DNA of 64,000 nucleotides from Eleginops maclovinus (lineage: Eukaryota; Chordata; Actinopteri; Perciformes; Eleginopidae), in assembly GCF_036324505.1 (NCBI RefSeq), contig NC_086364.1:18545648-18609647 (forward strand), written 5' to 3'. Both the position numbers and the translations under genes were made by a program. The notes under the pieces are model-generated. The model ran no database searches, was not told the origin of the DNA, and saw only the letters and a list, made by a program, of their open reading frames with translations. The first letter of the stretch is position 1, and each line of letters starts with the position of its first letter. Of this stretch, positions 181 to 49,114 are shown one piece after another.

Positions 181-1047
181 TCACAGTGATTTGTCCTCGG
201 CTCTGAGTTTTCTCAAATTGTGAGAAAGGAAGACCAATTTGTCCACATTGTCAGGGAGAAGTGAACTCCGCGTCTTGCTAACAATGAAGCCGGCCTTAGA
301 GAAGATGCGCTCCGATGGTGTGGACGTGGATGGGATGGAGTGAATACGCATGGCTGCTCTGGCCAGCTTCGGGTAACGCTCCTCGTTTTTTTGCCACCAT
401 GCTAGCGGTCCCGACTCAACTTTTGTTTTATCCTCCAAGTACCATTTCATTTCATTGTTCTGTTCTTCTGTCTGCAGCTCCTCATCTGTACCCATCAGCA
501 TGGATATTTCGTCCTGCTTTTCATTCTTTTTTGTTTTCTTCTGTGGTACAGGCCCGGGTTCGTTGTCGTCCCCACTGGCGTGCTGTGTCTGGGCAGGCTC
601 TTCTGCTGGAGATAGACTCTCAGCTAAATCCAACACCGTAGTGTATGCCTGGTTGCGTTTCTCTTCCTCCATAAACGATAAGCTTTTAAAGCGTGGGTCC
701 AAGACAGCAGCTTTGATGTAAATGCTGGACTGCAGCTCCTTGTTTAGCTCCCACCTCTTGTCAATTTCCTCACCAAGTGTTTTCTTCAGTGCTGTCACGG
801 CCGCGCTGTCATCCTCGCGCAGCAACAGGTGACGTCTTTTCATGTTTATGAGCATGGGCAGCGTGGCAGAGAGAGATGCATTAAGATCTTGTGAAAGCAA
901 CTCTGTAAGTGTGACCATCGGCTTCAACACCGACACTATGTCTTCTGTTATCCTCCATTGGACCGTGGTGAGATCCAAATCGCGGTCAGATCTGTGTGTG
1001 GTAACGGGGTCGGAAAGTACAGCGGTGACCGGCCACCTCTGTTCCAG
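181..1047 (-). CDS. hAT transposase exon 2, downstream half with C-terminal dimerisation domain
   Basis: This is the continuation of the frame broken at 6917: 288 codons plus a TGA stop at 181-183. The first residues (Leu-Glu-Gln-Arg-Trp-Pro-Val-Thr-Ala-Val) are exactly what follows Met-Leu-Glu-Arg-Leu in ZBED-type hAT transposases. The end carries the hATC signature: Leu-Ala-Trp-Trp, then Tyr-Pro-Lys-Leu-Ala, then Ser-Thr-Ser-Thr-Pro-Ser-Glu-Arg with Phe-Ser and Ala-Gly. A charged low-complexity stretch (Gln/Lys/Glu-rich) lies between. The frame is open throughout. On its own it has no ATG at the break, so it is a separated 3' half, not a gene. Confidence 0.88.
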   Translation of the reverse strand: MEQRWPVTAVLSDPVTTHRSDRDLDLTTVQWRITEDIVSVLKPMVTLTELLSQDLNASLSATLPMLINMKRRHLLLREDDSAAVTALKKTLGEEIDKRWELNKELQSSIYIKAAVLDPRFKSLSFMEEEKRNQAYTTVLDLAESLSPAEEPAQTQHASGDDNEPGPVPQKKTKKNEKQDEISMLMGTDEELQTEEQNNEMKWYLEDKTKVESGPLAWWQKNEERYPKLARAAMRIHSIPSTSTPSERIFSKAGFIVSKTRSSLLPDNVDKLVFLSHNLRKLRAEDKSL

Positions 1048-1049
1048 AA

Positions 1050-1340
1050 CCCACACAGCAGAGGACTCCGATACGGATCCGCTTTCAAGTCATCACATCC
1101 GCGTTACTGTCACATTCGTTTTGGTTCCGCTTGGCGGATCAGCGTCGCCACCGCGCGCCGCCGCACATTCTACTGTCAAAACGCGGATCATGACCGGATC
1201 CAAATCTGATTCACAAACACGGACGCGCCTCTACCAAAGTCCTTCTGCCTCTACTGTCAAAATGCGGCTCCGCGACACACCCGTATCGGATACGCAGACG
1301 CGGACGCGCCATCATTCCAACGGACGCACGGCCAGCACAG
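1050..1340. repeat. Left TIR and CpG-rich subterminal repeat region of the inner element
   Basis: After the terminal CCCACACAGCA this stretch is densely filled with short GC motifs such as CGGATCC, GCGGATCA, ACGCGGA and CGGACGCG in both orientations. The surroundings are AT-rich. The same vocabulary recurs at 6570-6900. Subterminal motif arrays are transposase binding platforms in several DNA transposons; that role here is inference. Confidence 0.6.
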
Positions 1341-1360
1341 CATAATTTTGAGCTCGCAAA

Positions 1361-1980
1361 GTAAGTATTGATTTTTACATTTATTATATTGTTACATAAA
1401 AGTAGATCGTCCCTATATAATTTTCATTATATGGATATTGTCAAACTTGCTTATGACTTGGAATACAATTATAGGAAAACGGTGTAAGTTATGTAAAACA
1501 GATTTCCAGATTTCCCTGAATGGGTAGAACAGAACTGTTCGCAATGGTGCGGGTGAATTGCCACTATCATATGGCTAGATAGACTAGTCTGTATTACACA
1601 GATGGCCGATAAGTTATAGGGGCTAGATAGTTGTTACACAAATAATTCAAAGCTAGTGTTATAATACCGTTATACATCGGTGCTATACAAGAAGTGACCA
1701 CCGTCTATCTTGTAGCCGCCTGTGTTTAGCAAGAATGCTAGCTAGCCATGAGCTAGCTAAACCCGCGAACCACTTTGAGTGATGAAATGCTATTACACAT
1801 ATCAGTTAGTAATACATTCTATGTTATCATACTTCATATCCTGTATCCTGATATCTTATAACATAAAATCCGTGAACAATCATGTGATTGACCGTGACTG
1901 CTAAGACTTGCTTGTTGTCATGACCTGAGCTCCATGCTATTACTTTTTGGTGATTATTTTTTCTTTCTGCCTATATGTAG
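1361..1980 (+). other. Probable 5' UTR intron of the cargo gene
   Basis: A strong donor (CGCAAA then GTAAGTATT, at 1361) lies just after the subterminal region. A polypyrimidine-rich acceptor ends in TAG at 1978-1980, two bases before the ATG. This suggests a short noncoding first exon ending at 1360, so that transcription starts inside the left subterminal region of the element. No core promoter motif is convincing. Confidence 0.45.
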
Positions 1981-1981
1981 T

Positions 1982-4900
1982 ATGCCTTTCAACCTCATCT
2001 CCTTCACCGCCACGAACGACATCGCTGTGGTGCCAGACAGCTGGTGTGACGATGGGGAGGTGTCCTGGCCAAGTTTCAAAAGCTCTGACCGAATTAAAAG
2101 AGCTGTGGCTAACTGTGAGGAGCCAGAGCCAAACTGGCTCCAATACGATATGCGGGTCATCAAAAGCTGTGGTAAAATCCATGTTCCTAAAAGATTTCAT
2201 GTGATTTCTGAAACATTTTATACTGCTGTTATTGACGTTCACAATAATGAATTGCAGTATGTAAGTTTCAGGTCAATGGAGGGCTGTTTAATGCTCTTAG
2301 GATTACACTCAAGTGTTCTACTATGCATCTCTGTAGGAAAATACATTTTTTTACAATGAGCTTTTCCTGACATTTCAGAGGGGTGCTCTGTTGCATATTA
2401 CTGTATATCAATCCTCTGTACAGCTGTATAATGTAAATATTTCCTTCTAGCCCACTATAAGGATGCTGAGGCGATGCTCGGGTCCTATGGGGAAGGCTGC
2501 AACACTTCCGAGCTGCAGACGGATGCAGAGCTGGAGACATGTCTGCCATCTAAGCGTCCTAGGAGGGCAGTGTAAGTGAGATTTGCCTTGTTCAAAAGTT
2601 CAAGGTTTCCTGCACAGCTTCTATGTGCAGGTAACAGCAGGAATAATATTGTCAAGAGACCAGGTATACTAATATAACAGTAATTATATGCTTACTTAAC
2701 AGCCATCGTTTTGGAGATGACACCTCCAGCGATGAGGACATGGGGGCACCTGAAGGTAATGTAAACTCTCCAGGTGAAGACTGATGTCTGGCATAATATT
2801 GAACAATTATCCAAAGCGACAAACTTTTTTATACAAAGCAACTTACAGTACACAATCAGCAACATATAAAATGTGTGAAAACATATAGAGGTAATATTAC
2901 AATGTTAGTGCTGATGAATATAGTTTTGTTATGAAGGAGGATATATCCTGGTCAATCTATACTAAATGAACAGAATACACCTGCGTTATGCAAGATTTCA
3001 TGCAATTACATTTTCAAATATTAACATGTCAAATTTCTCTCCATTGCCATGGTGCAGGTGTGTCCCAGCTTCAAAGCTCCCCTATCATCCGAGGAACTGC
3101 TTCGAAGCAGAGGATGACTCATGGTAAGAACTGATTTCTGAATTATTAAATATGGAAGCACATTTGTTTTATCAGCCACGGTTAGCACAAGAAACACCAT
3201 TTTAATGGCACTGTATTCTCTTCTTTTACACTGCCATTTTCACCAACGCTCAGGAACAGCACCAGCACCCGCACTCTCACCACCTCCTGAAGCGCCAAGA
3301 TCCAGCGTAGCAAGGCATGGAGGAATAAACCATGATGCCCCCTGCTCTGGTGAGCAATACCTGATACATTAAAGGGTTACTAGGTCACTCAGGAATTGCA
3401 AACTGCAGGCCTATGAGCCAAATCTGGCCCAAGGTGTGTTTCAAATGTGTATTACAGTTGGTCCACATAGTAAGCAGTTTTACTGCATTACGTGGCCTCT
3501 TAGTGTAGATGGGCCTGCCAGTGGGCCTGTTCACACTTTGCTGGAAATGCTCAACTACATCATAACAACATTACTATGACATTGCAGGGTGCCTTAAGTA
3601 ATAGAGTAAGACTTGGTCAATACAATTTTGTGGACAGTCAGGTTTTAGCACCCTACGCGAAGGGGTTAAACAGTATGGGTATTCCATTATTTTAATGGTA
3701 TGAGTATAGTAAATTCTCATTTCCTTTAGAATATATAACGCAAGAAAACGTCAGGCATTGGTCTTTATGGTGCAGGGGACATGTCCATAGCTTTTTTAAT
3801 TTTCTTAAATAGGATCACTAATCACTAAACCATTTCCAAATATTAACATGTCAAATTTCTCTCCATTGCCATGGTGCAGGTGTGTCCCAGCTTCAAAGCT
3901 CCCCTATCATCCGAGGAACTGCTTCGAAGCAGAGGATGACTCATGGTAGGAACTGATTTCTGAATTATTAAATATGGAAGCACATTTGTTTTATCAGCCA
4001 CGGTTAGCACAAGAACACCATTTTAATGGCACTGTATTCTCTTCTTTTACACTGCCATTTTCACCAACGCTCAGGAACAGCACCAGCACCCGCACTCTCA
4101 CCACCTCCTGAAGCGCCAAGATCCAGCGTAGCAAGGCATGGAGGAATGAACCATGATGCCCCCTGCTCTGGTGAGCAATACCTGATACATTAAAGGGTTA
4201 CTAGGTCACTCAGAAATTGCAAACTCAGGCCTATGAGCCAAATCTGGCCCATGGTGTGTTTTTTGGCTTGCAAGATTGATTTAATTATGTACTGCAGTTG
4301 GCCCACATACACAATGAATGCAATAATAATAGTAATGACTTAAACAGTAAAACATGATATGGTATTATATACACTGCATTGAAATTACACCAATATTCCA
4401 TTCAGTGTTTCGAAGAAGAGAATACAGTGCCATAACAGAAATGTTACATGTTTTTCAATAGCGTTTGAGGTCCAGAAATTGACGCTGCTCCAGAAAATCG
4501 TTCACCAGAACGAGCAGATTCTGGCTAAATTGGATTTCCTGGCAAGCCGCCAAAATTGCCCCACGCCAGAGATGACAGGACCTGAGATTTCCAACGTTCA
4601 ATTTCCCCTGGAGGACCTACAGGCAGTAGATGCCTTTGAAGATCTACTTAAAGACCAGGCCAATGCCTCCACTCGACAGCAAATTGTGAGTTTTTTTTTT
4701 TTTTGCATGGAGCCAATAAGTTCCTATAGATCGTCCATAAGAAAATGTGAATCGTAAGTGTCTACTCTATGCCTTTTAGATATCTTCTTTATCGATAATC
4801 GGAGGCCAGGACCTGAAGAGGATAACCTGGAACATCCTTGGTCGAATATTCGGGGTTGCTGTGGCCCACCAGATAAACTGGAAGGGGGTGAATTCAAAGA

Positions 4901-6370
4901 GGGCTTTCAGCCGGATGGCCATTAGGCCTCTTCTTTTCTGTAAGTAGTTGTTCAAACACAGCCACAAAGTACCTATCCACAATTCACAGCTTTTCTAATT
5001 AGTTTGTTTTCCATGCATTTATATCAGGGTTCCCACCCGTCCTGGAATATCAGTAGAGGTCCTGGAAATTCAATAGAGGTTTTTCCAGTCATGGAAAGTC
5101 ATGGAATTTGAGCATTTTGCATGTGCAGTCAGGGTATATCATTGAATTTGAGCAGTATTGTGCTTTTGTTTTGTCTAGAATGCTGCCCACAACATTATAG
5201 AATACTGTAGCGCTGAGCGGTAGCCACTTCAAAAGGATGAAGGAGGCAGCAGACAAAATGAATCGTCTTCGTTTATTTCCTGCCATCTCACAGTCTGAAA
5301 TGTGGGGGAAAAGGAGGTGTCCCCCAAGAAAATAATAAACACTGCTAATCACTAAACTAAATAAAGTTACACTCTAAAATTCAGCACGGCTTTCCCCTAT
5401 TCAATCTGCTCAGCTCTGACTAAAAATAAATAACGTCTTGGAACCCTTATCGATAACCCCACCCTTTATCAATAACCGTCCTATCTAGTGGTGGATAGTC
5501 TGGCTTCAGAAGTATCAATCCAGCACCTGGCCTACTAGGCACCTGGCTTGTTCCAGCCATTTACTGGACACTGAACACTGTCCTCTACTGACCAAGATAT
5601 TTAAAAATGTAAACATAGGCCTACTTTTTTCAAGGTCAAAGTTGGAGATTTCAAATTAATTTTCCATTGGGAGACATAGGAGATAGGTGAATAGGATAAC
5701 ATTTTAAACTGTGATCAACTATTCTATTTCTATTCTAACTGTGATTCTTTAACCTTGAAAAAAAACACAGGCCCTACTTTATATCAATCGGAATATTTGT
5801 AATATATCATGCATAGGTATTTAATAGTCAGTATGAACCTTTACTATTAGGCCTACATTTTTCTCTGTTTAGCCGTTTTTGCATTAGATTGATTGGACTA
5901 TTTTCCCCTTGCGAACACGCATAAAAAGCGCTCGTTCTATATGAAGAGAACGTGTTCTATCGCAACAAGGTTTATTTATATTGACTATCCGGTTAAAATG
6001 ACTGCTTGTTAACTAGGATAGTACTCATAGTTCTACTATCGAGTGGTCTCTGCATATTACTCTACACTGCTCGGAGACTTTCTAGGCTTGGATATATTTG
6101 TTATAGCCTATTGTTGTCGAACCCCACCTAGTCAGCCGTAAATATTTTGTTTGCTTGGGTTTTCCAGTGTCGCATCGTCATATAGGCCAATGTGCGATTG
6201 AAATGTTCCGTCACAAACATGAATTCTGTCTGATTACAGGTGCCGTGAGGAAAAACCCAATTGCCTGCAAGTCTGCAATGGACGAAGACATCAGCAAGCA
6301 CGCCATACGTTGGTTTAATTTAGCTGGGGATCGGGCCACCAGGAAGGCGAAAGAGATCAACAATCATTAA
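1982..6370 (+). CDS. DUF4806-domain protein gene, multi-exon, carried inside a transposon
   Basis: Coding exons are 1982-2171, 2451-2571, 2703-2755, 3058-3123, 3254-3349, 3880-3945, 4075-4170, 4462-4685, 4780-4939 and 6240-6370 (TAA at 6368-6370). All junctions are GT-AG and every phase agrees, giving 1,203 bp or 400 residues. Residues 1-90 form the N-terminal module usual in this family (Val-Val-Pro-Asp-Ser-Trp, Ser-Trp-Pro, Trp-Leu-Gln-Tyr). Acidic and Pro/Ser-rich linkers follow. A short heptad-like segment lies near 236-256. Residues 276-393 are the DUF4806-like domain (Ile-Gly-Gly-Gln-Asp-Leu-Lys, Ile-Asn-Trp-Lys-Gly, Ala-Val-Arg-Lys-Asn, Trp-Phe-Asn-Leu-Ala-Gly). Molecular function is unknown. 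The family is multi-copy in fish. The location inside TIRs suggests a transposon-encoded or captured gene, possibly an end-binding protein. Domain call is from memory of the family. Confidence 0.8.
3008..3475 (+). repeat. Tandem segmental duplication, copy 1 (carries exons 4 and 5)
   Basis: This segment contains the 66-bp and 96-bp exons (3058-3123, 3254-3349) with their introns. It recurs about 821 bp downstream with only scattered differences. Copy 1 lacks about 30 bases present in copy 2 near its right end. Both exons have matching phase 1 on each side, so the pair is frame-neutral. Confidence 0.88.
3830..4310 (+). repeat. Tandem segmental duplication, copy 2 (carries exons 4' and 5')
   Basis: Second copy of the exon pair (3880-3945, 4075-4170). 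Acceptor and donor sites are kept; the first donor changed from GTAAGA to GTAGGA. One coding difference is seen in the second exon (ATA to ATG, Ile to Met). The 54 repeated residues are Ser/Pro/Ala-rich linker between the N-terminal module and the DUF4806-like domain. Confidence 0.88.
4940..6239 (+). other. Last intron of the cargo gene
   Basis: Donor TGTAAGT at 4940 and acceptor TTACAGG ending 6239 bound a 1.3 kb intron. At about 5030-5170 it holds a degenerate internally repetitive stretch (CCTGGAA, TCATGGAA, GAATTTGAGCA repeated) typical of dispersed fish repeats. No coding sequence is seen on either strand. Confidence 0.6.
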
Positions 6371-6916
6371 ATACAATACATTAAATACAACAGTTATCAT
6401 TTGTCGGGTTATTTTTTTGTAGGCTATTAGCCTAAAATGTGGCTTTTGCAGTTCAAGACAAGTGTGTTTTCTGCCAAATTAGAATGTAATACAAAGCCTG
6501 TTTGAAACAAATGCTTAACTGGTTTAGTTTATTAGGATTACCCTTAATAAGAAAGTAAGTTCATTAACACGGATCCAAAACGGTCCCGGCCCGGAACATT
6601 TATGAGTCCGGAATGGGTCCGTAGCTGATACAAAATAGTGGGTCCGTGACGGATGCAGTACGCGGACACGAAATGAGTCCGTCTCGGATGTCGCGGGTCC
6701 GAACCGTGCCCGTTACGGAGGTGAGCTTTTGAGCGCGGATCCGTTACGGGTGATATACGGGTCCTTTTTGGGTCCGCGCAACGCCTCCGCGGCGGATGAT
6801 ACGCGGCGTGCAAGTGGACGCCGATACGGATCAGTTTGGCGGATCCGTTCCGGAGGACGACCTCCGGAGGATGAACTCCGGGGCGGATCCACCGCGGAGT
6901 ATTTTTGCTGTGTGGG
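6371..6916. repeat. 3' UTR, right subterminal array and right TIR of the inner element
   Basis: ATTAAA-type polyadenylation signals lie immediately after the stop (about 6366-6384). From 6570 to 6900 the sequence becomes CpG-rich with many GGTCCG, CGGATCC, ACGGATG and TCCGGAGG motifs, some palindromic, mirroring the left end. The right TIR ends GCTGTGTGGG at 6907-6916. Confidence 0.6.
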
Positions 6917-7768
6917 AAGGCGCTCCAACATGCAGTGAGTGGAGTTCCATCTCGTGGAGACATCCTGGATGAGTTTGTGTTCAACCACGTTCTGTTGTGT
7001 TTGTTTTTCAGTGAGAGCCGCTGTAGCCTTGGCACTTTTCTTAAAATGTCCAACAAGACGTCTGGCAGCTGCTATGACACGGCAAATGGGATCTTTTTTA
7101 AGAGCCGCATTGATGCACAGCTGCAAAGTGTGCCCTGCGCAACGAACTCCTTGGACGTTACCCCAGGACGGGTTACGCGCTAACTGATGGGCGCACAGCA
7201 CCATGTTCGCGGCATTGTCATGTACAAGAGCGACCCTTTTTTCCGCGGGGATTTTAAAGTCTGCCATGACTTCGCTGAGTCGCTCTGCTATGTTGACAGC
7301 TGTGTGGCTCACTCCCAACTCTTTCGTTTCCAGCACGAATGAATGCAGTTGCCAGTTATCCGAAATAAAATGCGCTGTGACCGTCATGTAACTTTCCATC
7401 TGGTTAGATGTCCATGCATCTGTTGTGAAGCTGAGTGCTTTGCAGTTATCGATCTTGCCCTGGAGTGTTTGTTTTATTGTGCTGTATTTGTTTGTAATCG
7501 CGTGCATCACTGTTTCACGTTTTGGCAGGCTGTATCCGGGCTCGAGGCAATTAATTAGATCTTTAAATCCCTCACCACTGACGATATTCACAGGTCGCAT
7601 GTCCAGCGCTATGAAGTCAGCTATTTTGTCAGTTATGTCTCTCTTCCTTTTTTCAGACAGAGGGGCTTTCATTGTGAGCTTCTGCTGCGTTAATGATGAG
7701 GAGGATGAGGAGGATGATGAGGATGACGTGGAGGTGGAGGGGGCTAGATTGCAATAAAGTGGATGCGC
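6917..7768 (-). CDS. hAT transposase exon 2, upstream half (RNase H-like core), cut at 6917 by an insertion
   Basis: The exon follows the acceptor TCTCTACAG and runs 284 codons in phase with exon 1. It opens with a Ser-rich linker, then the hAT DNA-binding/insertion region. The transposase core includes Thr-Thr-Asp-Ala-Trp (first catalytic Asp region), Val-His-Asp-Asn-Ala-Ala-Asn (second Asp), the Cys-Ala-Gly-His-Thr-Leu-Gln-Leu segment and Ser-Thr-Arg-Trp-Asn-Ser-Thr just before the break. No stop or frameshift is present. The frame runs into the inner transposon right after Met-Leu-Glu-Arg-Leu, where the protein becomes nonsense. It resumes at 1047 in the same frame. As it stands the gene cannot make the normal protein unless the insert is removed. 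Confidence 0.88.
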
Positions 7769-7965
7769 CTGTAGAGATTTAAATAATAAGTTAACCAGTG
7801 AGCTGGATAATTTAGCCTTACCAATACTAGCGACAAAACTAAATGTACTTAATTCATTATTTATTAATTCAATGTATTATTTATAATTTATATATATTTA
7901 TAATAGGCCTAATTGCATTAACTTCATCACATAGGATAGCTAGGCTAGTAGGCTAAGCTACTTAC

Positions 7966-8103
7966 ATTCTTGAGGTGGTAAATCATGTTCGTCGTGGACG
8001 AATGATAGGCAAATGTTTTTCTGCAAATTTGGCATATAACCCTCTTTGGGTCATCTCTATCCTTTTCGAAATGCTCCCATATCTTAGAGCTCCTTCCAGA
8101 CAT
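7966..8103 (-). CDS. hAT transposase exon 1: BED zinc finger
   Basis: The exon starts at ATG 8101-8103 and encodes 46 residues beginning MSGRSSKIWEHF. It shows the BED-finger pattern: W-x-H-F near residues 9-12, C-x-x-C at residues 24 and 27, then a Ser-Thr-Thr and the final His of Met-Ile-Tyr-His-Leu. It ends in a good donor (AAGAAT then GTAAGT on the minus strand) in phase 0, matching the phase of the acceptor at 7769-7770. BED fingers are the DNA-binding domains of hAT transposases and recognise the element ends. An ATG 14 codons further upstream in the same frame would give a longer N-terminus, but MSGR followed by the conserved Trp fits the family better. Confidence 0.8.
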
Positions 8104-8310
8104 GATAGCCAAATAAGTCGATGCTGTCCTTGTCAAACAAATCAAAACCGTTTAACGTCTTTCTTGTCACGCCCTTCAAATTAAAAGTCCCGGAAGCCCT
8201 TTGACGAGACGCGGCTTTTTTCCCCTGCGACCAATCGACCAATGGAATTTGGTCGACAAGTATTTTTTTTGGTCGACCAACGATTAATCGATTATTTGAG
8301 GTCAGCCCTA

Positions 8311-14526: not shown

Positions 14527-18189
<3,663 letters not shown>

Positions 18190-22935: not shown

Positions 22936-28296
<5,361 letters not shown>

Positions 28297-28560: not shown

Positions 28561-31228
<2,668 letters not shown>

Positions 31229-40486: not shown

Positions 40487-49114
<8,628 letters not shown>

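Follow-up and report, generated by a model that had tools for sequence, protein, structure and literature searches.

An internally deleted element with a DUF4806 gene in a hAT transposase gene of Eleginops maclovinus, probably derived from a two-gene transposon of the CMCT clade

The maize En/Spm transposon, which has CACTA ends and a 3-bp target-site duplication, encodes TnpA and TnpD from one element, carries subterminal motif arrays and a GC- and CpG-rich control region at its end, and gives rise to dSpm deletion derivatives. Transib, RAG1 and ProtoRAG produce a 5-bp duplication, with a RAG2-like partner in ProtoRAG, and the RAG1-fold clade gave rise to V(D)J recombination. Passages in the literature give animal CACTA elements such as ENS1_Cis a 2-bp duplication (PMC6004678), present PIF/Harbinger transposons as two-protein systems (PMC2836001, PMC12730594) and describe an ORF2 protein as supporting excision (PMC4158355). 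Here, these systems are compared with an element at positions 1050–6916 of a 64,000-nucleotide window (the whole stretch of DNA analyzed; NC_086364.1, here contig C16) in the 606-Mb, 27-contig genome of Eleginops maclovinus. We propose that it probably arose by internal deletion from a cut-and-paste transposon with two genes, a member of the EnSpm/CACTA-Mirage-Chapaev-Transib (CMCT) clade that encodes a 685-aa transposase and a DUF4806 protein, its putative end-binding partner. At the level of sequence, our comparisons establish common ends, 2-bp duplications, dispersal, a deletion shared by three loci, a transposase in the longer copies, and DUF4806 downstream of it in divergent families.

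The element splits a minus-strand gene that encodes a hAT (ZBED-like) transposase. With the element and one AA removed, the joined hAT halves align without gaps over at least 8 residues on either side of the junction in 97 of the 120 listed relatives; this protein-level comparison serves as the empty site for the locus. The end motifs CCCACACAGCA at 1050 and TGCTGTGTGGG at 6906 occur once each in the window. Over the 33 and 34 terminal bases, the alignment has 26 identical positions, 7 mismatches and a single gap; the 311-bp and 356-bp ends reach an alignment score of 73, against a maximum of 61 among 200 simple base shuffles.

As a genome-wide query, the left 311 bp returned 14 matches at ≥96% identity and two at 72–75%, and the right 356 bp returned nine at ≥99%, one full-length match at 85% and four short, weak ones. 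Pairing of these matches yielded ten two-ended copies on nine contigs, with lengths taken from their coordinates (Table 1). All ten terminate in CCCACACAGC and GCTGTGTGGG, directly adjoining the duplication; 2-bp flanks match in every copy, while a 3-bp duplication fails in nine, and the tenth (C14) sits in a run of G. No right end was found for four left ends (C24, C7 at 18.05 Mb and two on C22). A same-strand DUF4806 cluster lies downstream of 15 of the 16 left-end matches, the exception being C22 at 1.70 Mb. Identity is ≥99% for most compared stretches, and therefore the family spread recently; lower values were recorded for C2 at 15.66 Mb (98.4%, first 384 bp), C14 (98.6%, 904 bp), C22 at 1.70 Mb (96.5%) and C20 (93.6–96.1%). 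Since the 5,867-bp element recurs at two other loci, 99.9% identical but differently flanked, it is not an assembly artefact of a single place. The copy at C20:1070318–1076160 has a 311-bp left end 100% identical to that of the window, 93–96% identity with many indels over longer stretches, a right end at 85% and a DUF4806 part 53–55% identical as protein; it may be an old copy in which one end was preserved, or it may be chimeric.

The transposase gene resides in the longer copies. Relative to the 9,167-bp C6 copy, 3,312 bp are missing from the window copy beyond element position 833; in long copies, this stretch carries a single-exon frame for a 685-aa transposase. This frame is stop-free and 100% identical at four loci, namely C5, C6, C7 at 18.05 Mb (which is without a right end) and C11, where the copy is 1.2 kb shorter than that of C6 and has no match to DUF4806 exon 9; it is interrupted at C2 (15.66 Mb) and C24. 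The identical 3.3-kb deletion is found in the window, C1 and C2 (19.0 Mb) copies, and their duplications differ; therefore, the deleted form itself was mobilized in trans. Different internal deletions are seen at C14 and at C22 (18.2 Mb). No transposase-like frame was found among the open reading frames (ORFs) listed inside the window element, and the genome search with the family transposase gave no match at the window locus among the best candidates scored.

By its motifs and predicted fold, the transposase belongs to the CMCT clade. Its DDE triad (D209, D286, E525), the C(2)C motif CDKC at 305–308 and the H(3-4)H motif H501/H505 are invariant in alignment A3, and a passage in PMC12730594 names C(2)C and H(3-4)H between the second D and E as the CMCT feature. 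The predicted fold has a RAG1/Transib-like core, as expected of CMCT, and thus resembles Transib, RAG1 and ProtoRAG (BbRAGL); unlike these, the window family has a 2-bp duplication and a different partner protein. With EnSpm/CACTA, it shares a CMC-type DDE transposase with both motifs, a duplication in the expected 2- or 3-bp range (2 bp in all ten copies), motif-rich ends and internally deleted, defective copies. A DUF4218-type region occurs in 52 of 53 relatives at E up to 0.1, and tnp2 (PF02992) matches three of the 53 (best E 2e-6); in contrast to EnSpm/CACTA, the element's own transposase scores too low for DUF4218 by the Pfam cut-off and is not matched by tnp2, and the second protein is DUF4806/BEN-like. 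Plavaka was rejected, its TGT..ACA or CATCA..TGATG ends, as given in a passage of PMC12730594, being absent from the copies. Tc1/mariner-type and hAT-type ends were excluded by the transposase and the varied 2-bp duplications (AA, TT, AC, CT, AT, TA, GG, GA). Among the matches listed, the nearest transposases elsewhere are those of Coilia, 68% identical over the full length, and Leuciscus, 69% identical at 60% coverage.

Residues 561–681 of the transposase (C6 copy) have a BAH-like C-terminal predicted fold, with ZMET2 and the DNMT1 BAH domain as best matches; Pfam reports no BAH there. Possibly, this domain is a chromatin reader on an EnSpm-related transposase.

An earlier note, made from the window alone, had described a DNA transposon at 1050–6916 within a hAT transposase gene, with 33-bp imperfect terminal inverted repeats (TIRs), a 2-bp AA duplication and an intact spliced DUF4806 gene as its sole gene. 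The rejoined frame, the end alignment, the matching flanks, the same boundaries in other, dispersed copies, ten exons joined by GT-AG introns, and the lack of a transposase-like ORF among those listed bear this out, and the two further 5,867-bp loci speak against its concern over an assembly artefact. The refuting outcomes that it named also turned out in its favour, with boundaries shared by other copies and DUF4806 clusters downstream of 15 of the 16 left-end matches. A 3-bp TTC duplication with asymmetric ends, considered there as well, fails at the window too. The superfamily it left unassigned can now be placed, since longer same-ended copies, for which it had suggested a search, carry an EnSpm/CMC-clade transposase. 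The reported lack of a transposase frame is true of the window copy and not of the element type, since the 3.3-kb deletion explains the loss; mobilization in trans, one of its two suggestions, agrees with the deletion at three loci.

The DUF4806 gene comprises ten exons with GT-AG introns, and its 400-aa product is identical in every residue to P0001, the predicted E. maclovinus protein LOC134882355. The DUF4806 (PF16064) match reaches E = 1.2e-9 and 38.8 bits, against a Pfam gathering cut-off of 25. Structure prediction suggests a Tudor-like domain at the N-terminus and a BEN-like one at the C-terminus, with a disordered linker and then a long helix between them. The predicted fold of the DUF4806 region resembles BEN-domain proteins (insv, BANP, NACC1, Bsg25A), and a passage in PMC11075544 terms DUF4806 a BEN subtype; it differs from those proteins in its linkage to a Tudor-like domain and its location in a transposon, and no sequence-level match to them was found. 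A 0.82-kb tandem duplication (3009–3441 and 3831–4261, segments 97–99% identical) doubles one exon pair. The duplicated exons have lengths divisible by three, so splicing can include one pair or the two together, and the duplication predates the recent spread, because the C1, C2, C5 and C6 copies that were compared all contain the two units. Intron 9 holds 'tcatggaa/cctggaa'-type repeats (window 5030–5130), possibly a nested older repeat.

To what extent DUF4806 and transposase genes travel together was assessed with one query protein, P0001, which gave at least 116 exon matches in at least 29 clusters across the genome. Cluster counts are lower bounds, with 65 of 128 transposase and 104 of 142 DUF4806 candidates scored; the linkage count took 53 of the 116 DUF4806 rows (those dropped were extra exons of represented family copies) and all 74 transposase rows. 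A same-strand transposase lies within 15 kb, always upstream, in 15 of the 29 DUF4806 clusters, where about 0.001 would be expected per cluster. Eight of these are copies of the window family (C20 at 1.07 Mb being the old or chimeric one). The other seven are divergent (C5 24.69 Mb, C12 4.19, C17 0.23, C20 1.38, C20 31.2, C23 22.8 and C23 24.6), with gaps of about 450–850 bp in six and 1.7 kb in one. Among the 14 unlinked clusters, five are family copies with the transposase part deleted, C1 at 5.75 Mb has a related left end upstream, and C22 at 1.75 Mb has a related right end downstream. By transposase identity, DUF4806 was associated with 12 of 18 clusters at ≥50% versus 3 of 23 below, one value being taken per cluster; C20 at 1.07 Mb (43%) is misclassed here, its value being lowered by frameshifts in a copy about 94% identical as DNA. 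This dependence suggests either one transposase clade with a DUF4806 partner or limited query sensitivity.

Gene models of other fish point the same way. Among 48 listed DUF4806 proteins, P0004 (Esox) and P0005 (Entelurus) open with a transposase N-terminus, at 87% identity across the initial 82 residues in the former and 78% across the initial 47 in the latter; the first 12 residues of P0014 (Paramormyrops) were also recognized by eye near the start of a Xenopus transposase, P0182. Among 120 listed transposases, P0244 (Cirrhinus) and P0283 (Brachyhypopomus) include parts of DUF4806 proteins. In a control with 120 hAT proteins, a single match appeared, P0048, to a protein whose listing names a reverse-transcriptase domain. 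Although joined models are gene predictions, they imply that the two genes must be neighbours. DUF4806 thus appears, from its genomic placement, to be the second gene of the element type and the element's own protein rather than a host gene. That the window gene is instead a host gene, domesticated or by chance within a transposon, is highly improbable and was rejected on copy structure: it is indeed intact, spliced and annotated, but near-identical copies sit at many dispersed loci inside same-ended elements, and for listed proteins of other species, identity does not exceed 59% across the aligned region.

Both ends carry subterminal repeat arrays of the kind found in EnSpm/CACTA; their CGGA/TCCG counts were reached in none of 500 shuffles on either side. 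The two ends (1050–1360 and 6561–6916) are CpG islands with an observed/expected ratio of about 1.5, and the remaining element and window are CpG-poor, which suggests recent insertion or protection from methylation. In the mechanism we propose, the transposase of complete copies would act in trans to excise and insert copies of either form, long or deleted. The CpG-rich TCCG/CGGA arrays at both ends would be bound by the DUF4806/BEN-like protein, which could help assemble or regulate the transposition complex, as TnpA does in maize En/Spm; transcription of both mRNAs would probably begin at the left end, giving them a common non-coding first exon. Judged from its predicted fold and the end arrays, DUF4806 would most likely be a TnpA-like protein that binds the ends and partners the transposase. 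The family resembles maize En/Spm in its two proteins per element, subterminal arrays, CpG-rich end and dSpm-like deletion derivatives, and differs in duplication length and terminal sequence; the proposed likeness of DUF4806 to TnpA concerns role. With PIF/Harbinger, it shares a transposase plus a separate, here putative, DNA-binding protein; the transposase superfamily there is another one, and the partner has Myb/SANT in place of a BEN-like domain.

Several observations weigh against this proposal. The ends start with CCC and not with the 5'-CAC...GTG-3' of EnSpm/CACTA sensu stricto. Seven of the 29 DUF4806 clusters had no transposon hallmark found, the one on C4 adjoining an opposite-strand transposase, and 26 of the 41 transposase clusters had no DUF4806 detected nearby with this query; the partner may not be universal, or may escape detection once it has diverged. 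Gene models that join the two or begin with a transposase are scarce, at 3 of 48 and 2 of 120. The BEN-like match (Foldseek E 0.67) has Z < 8, a level that possibly reflects just a common arrangement and is too low to convince alone, so the fold is suggestive and not decisive; sequence and profile searches of the PDB gave no BEN, RAG1 or BAH chain, and these links come from predicted folds alone.

The earlier note had left open whether DUF4806 is cargo or an element protein, and whether it takes part in transposition. A transposon protein it does appear to be; participation receives indirect support from the predicted BEN-like fold, the end arrays and the repeated linkage. The strongest competitor, itself somewhat unlikely, makes it an anti-silencing or regulatory factor, keeping CpG-island ends active or repressing over-activity, rather than a structural partner of the transposase. 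The overlap of the CpG-rich ends with the putative first exon and the predicted BEN-like and Tudor-like folds would suit such a factor, but nothing separates this role from end binding, and one protein may do both. We consider it improbable that DUF4806 is passenger cargo, a captured host gene without a part in transposition. The window copy keeps DUF4806 alone and yet moved, as any non-autonomous copy would, and the 26 transposase clusters without DUF4806 also fit cargo; however, the order transposase then DUF4806 recurs in seven divergent families and in gene models of five other fish, and a predicted BEN-like fold with motif arrays suits an end-binding protein.

A role as end-binding partner would provide an identity, open to test, for a domain of unknown function reported in genome papers as expanded or species-enriched. 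In the passages concerned, DUF4806 is tabulated alongside transposase domains in Hydra (PMC7642931), named a candidate for later functional work in a beetle (PMC13270666), viewed, for the sex chromosome of zebrafish, as a set of possible chromatin genes (PMC11075544) and named once in a mosquito paper (PMC11445403). Tentatively, DUF4806 proteins as a class could serve as accessory proteins that bind the ends of RAG1-fold transposons in a lineage widespread among animals; in that lineage, chromatin-reader-like folds on both proteins would couple excision and insertion to histone marks and CpG-end methylation; the expanded fish, Hydra and beetle DUF4806 genes would then be transposon genes. If so, DUF4806 expansions would reflect transposon bursts and not adaptation. 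In addition, the family is a vertebrate example of a two-protein transposon whose copies are nearly identical and whose transposase carries a predicted BAH-like domain. In the titles, abstract starts and passages of open literature listed by our searches, we found no link between DUF4806 or BEN and transposons, or between BAH and transposases of CACTA or other DNA transposons; Repbase and subscription papers lie outside this scope, and priority is not claimed.

Table 1. Features of the window and two-ended copies of the family (duplications of copies in element orientation).
Feature	Location	Strand	Length	Duplication	Basis
Internally deleted, non-autonomous two-gene transposon	1050..6916	+	5,867 bp		three loci hold it at 99.9% identity
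Left target-site duplication	1048..1049	.		AA	flank comparison of copies
Right target-site duplication	6917..6918	.		AA	flank comparison of copies
Left TIR, 11 bp perfect, 26/33 with one gap	1050..1082	+			end alignment
Right TIR	6883..6916	-			end alignment
Left subterminal CpG-rich CGGA/TCCG array, 13 found vs 3.4 expected	1050..1360	+			motif counts
Putative non-coding first exon, donor GTAAGT at 1361	1050..1360	+			sequence reading
Right subterminal CpG-rich CGGA/TCCG array, 27 found vs 7.1 expected	6561..6916	-			motif counts
Filler at deletion junction; 3,312 bp including transposase gene here in long copies	1883..1894	+	12 bp		copy comparison
DUF4806 gene, coding exon 1; N-terminal Tudor-like fold, extends into exon 2	1982..2171	+			exon reading, predicted fold
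Exon 2	2451..2571	+			exon reading
Exon 3	2703..2755	+			exon reading
Exon 4	3058..3123	+			exon reading
Exon 5	3254..3349	+			exon reading
Exon 6, duplicate of exon 4	3880..3945	+			exon reading
Exon 7, duplicate of exon 5	4075..4170	+			exon reading
Exon 8; long helix and beginning of DUF4806/BEN-like region	4462..4685	+			exon reading, domain search
Exon 9	4780..4939	+			exon reading, domain search, predicted fold
Exon 10, including stop	6240..6370	+			exon reading, predicted fold
hAT transposase (interrupted), N-terminal part	6917..7876	-			ORF list, domain search, relatives
hAT transposase (interrupted), C-terminal part including dimerisation domain	184..1047	-			ORF list, domain search, relatives
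BED zinc finger frame	7948..8151	-			domain search
Two-ended copy	C16 (window)		5,867 bp	AA	
Two-ended copy	C1		5,867 bp	AC	
Two-ended copy	C2 19.0 Mb		5,867 bp	TT	
Two-ended copy	C14		4,813 bp	GG, within run of G	
Two-ended copy	C7 19.57 Mb		6,314 bp	TA	
Two-ended copy	C11		7,993 bp	AT	
Two-ended copy	C6		9,167 bp	CT	
Two-ended copy	C20		10,750 bp	GA	
Two-ended copy	C5		12,353 bp	AA	
Two-ended copy	C2 15.66 Mb		13,677 bp	TT	

The BED zinc finger frame next to the hAT gene is probably an exon of the interrupted hAT element. Relatives outside the E. maclovinus genome were compared as proteins, where DUF4806 matches listed from other species reach at most 59% identity over the aligned part; a near-uniform family here and distant relatives elsewhere would fit a recent arrival, possibly by horizontal transfer. 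Viral contigs scanned with the DUF4806 and transposase alignments yielded no relatives.

Genome-wide, the CCCACACAGCA pattern occurs 165 times forward and 208 times in reverse, versus 86 and 87 for the control. Most of the single-motif loci fetched from the first ~100 places had no element match and lay in unrelated sequence, and a low-complexity, CCCACACAGCA-rich stretch near the contig start at C5:7000–16999 inflates such simple TIR pattern counts. On the minus strand of C2:542100–543600, a divergent TCCG-rich end starting with CCCACACAGCAAAAGGACACC and preceded by AA is probably one end of a related family. Long dinucleotide (GT/TG/AC) repeats lie elsewhere in the window, at 16466–16567, 18025–18189, 27332–27555, 30804–31059, 31150–31228 and 42711–42882.

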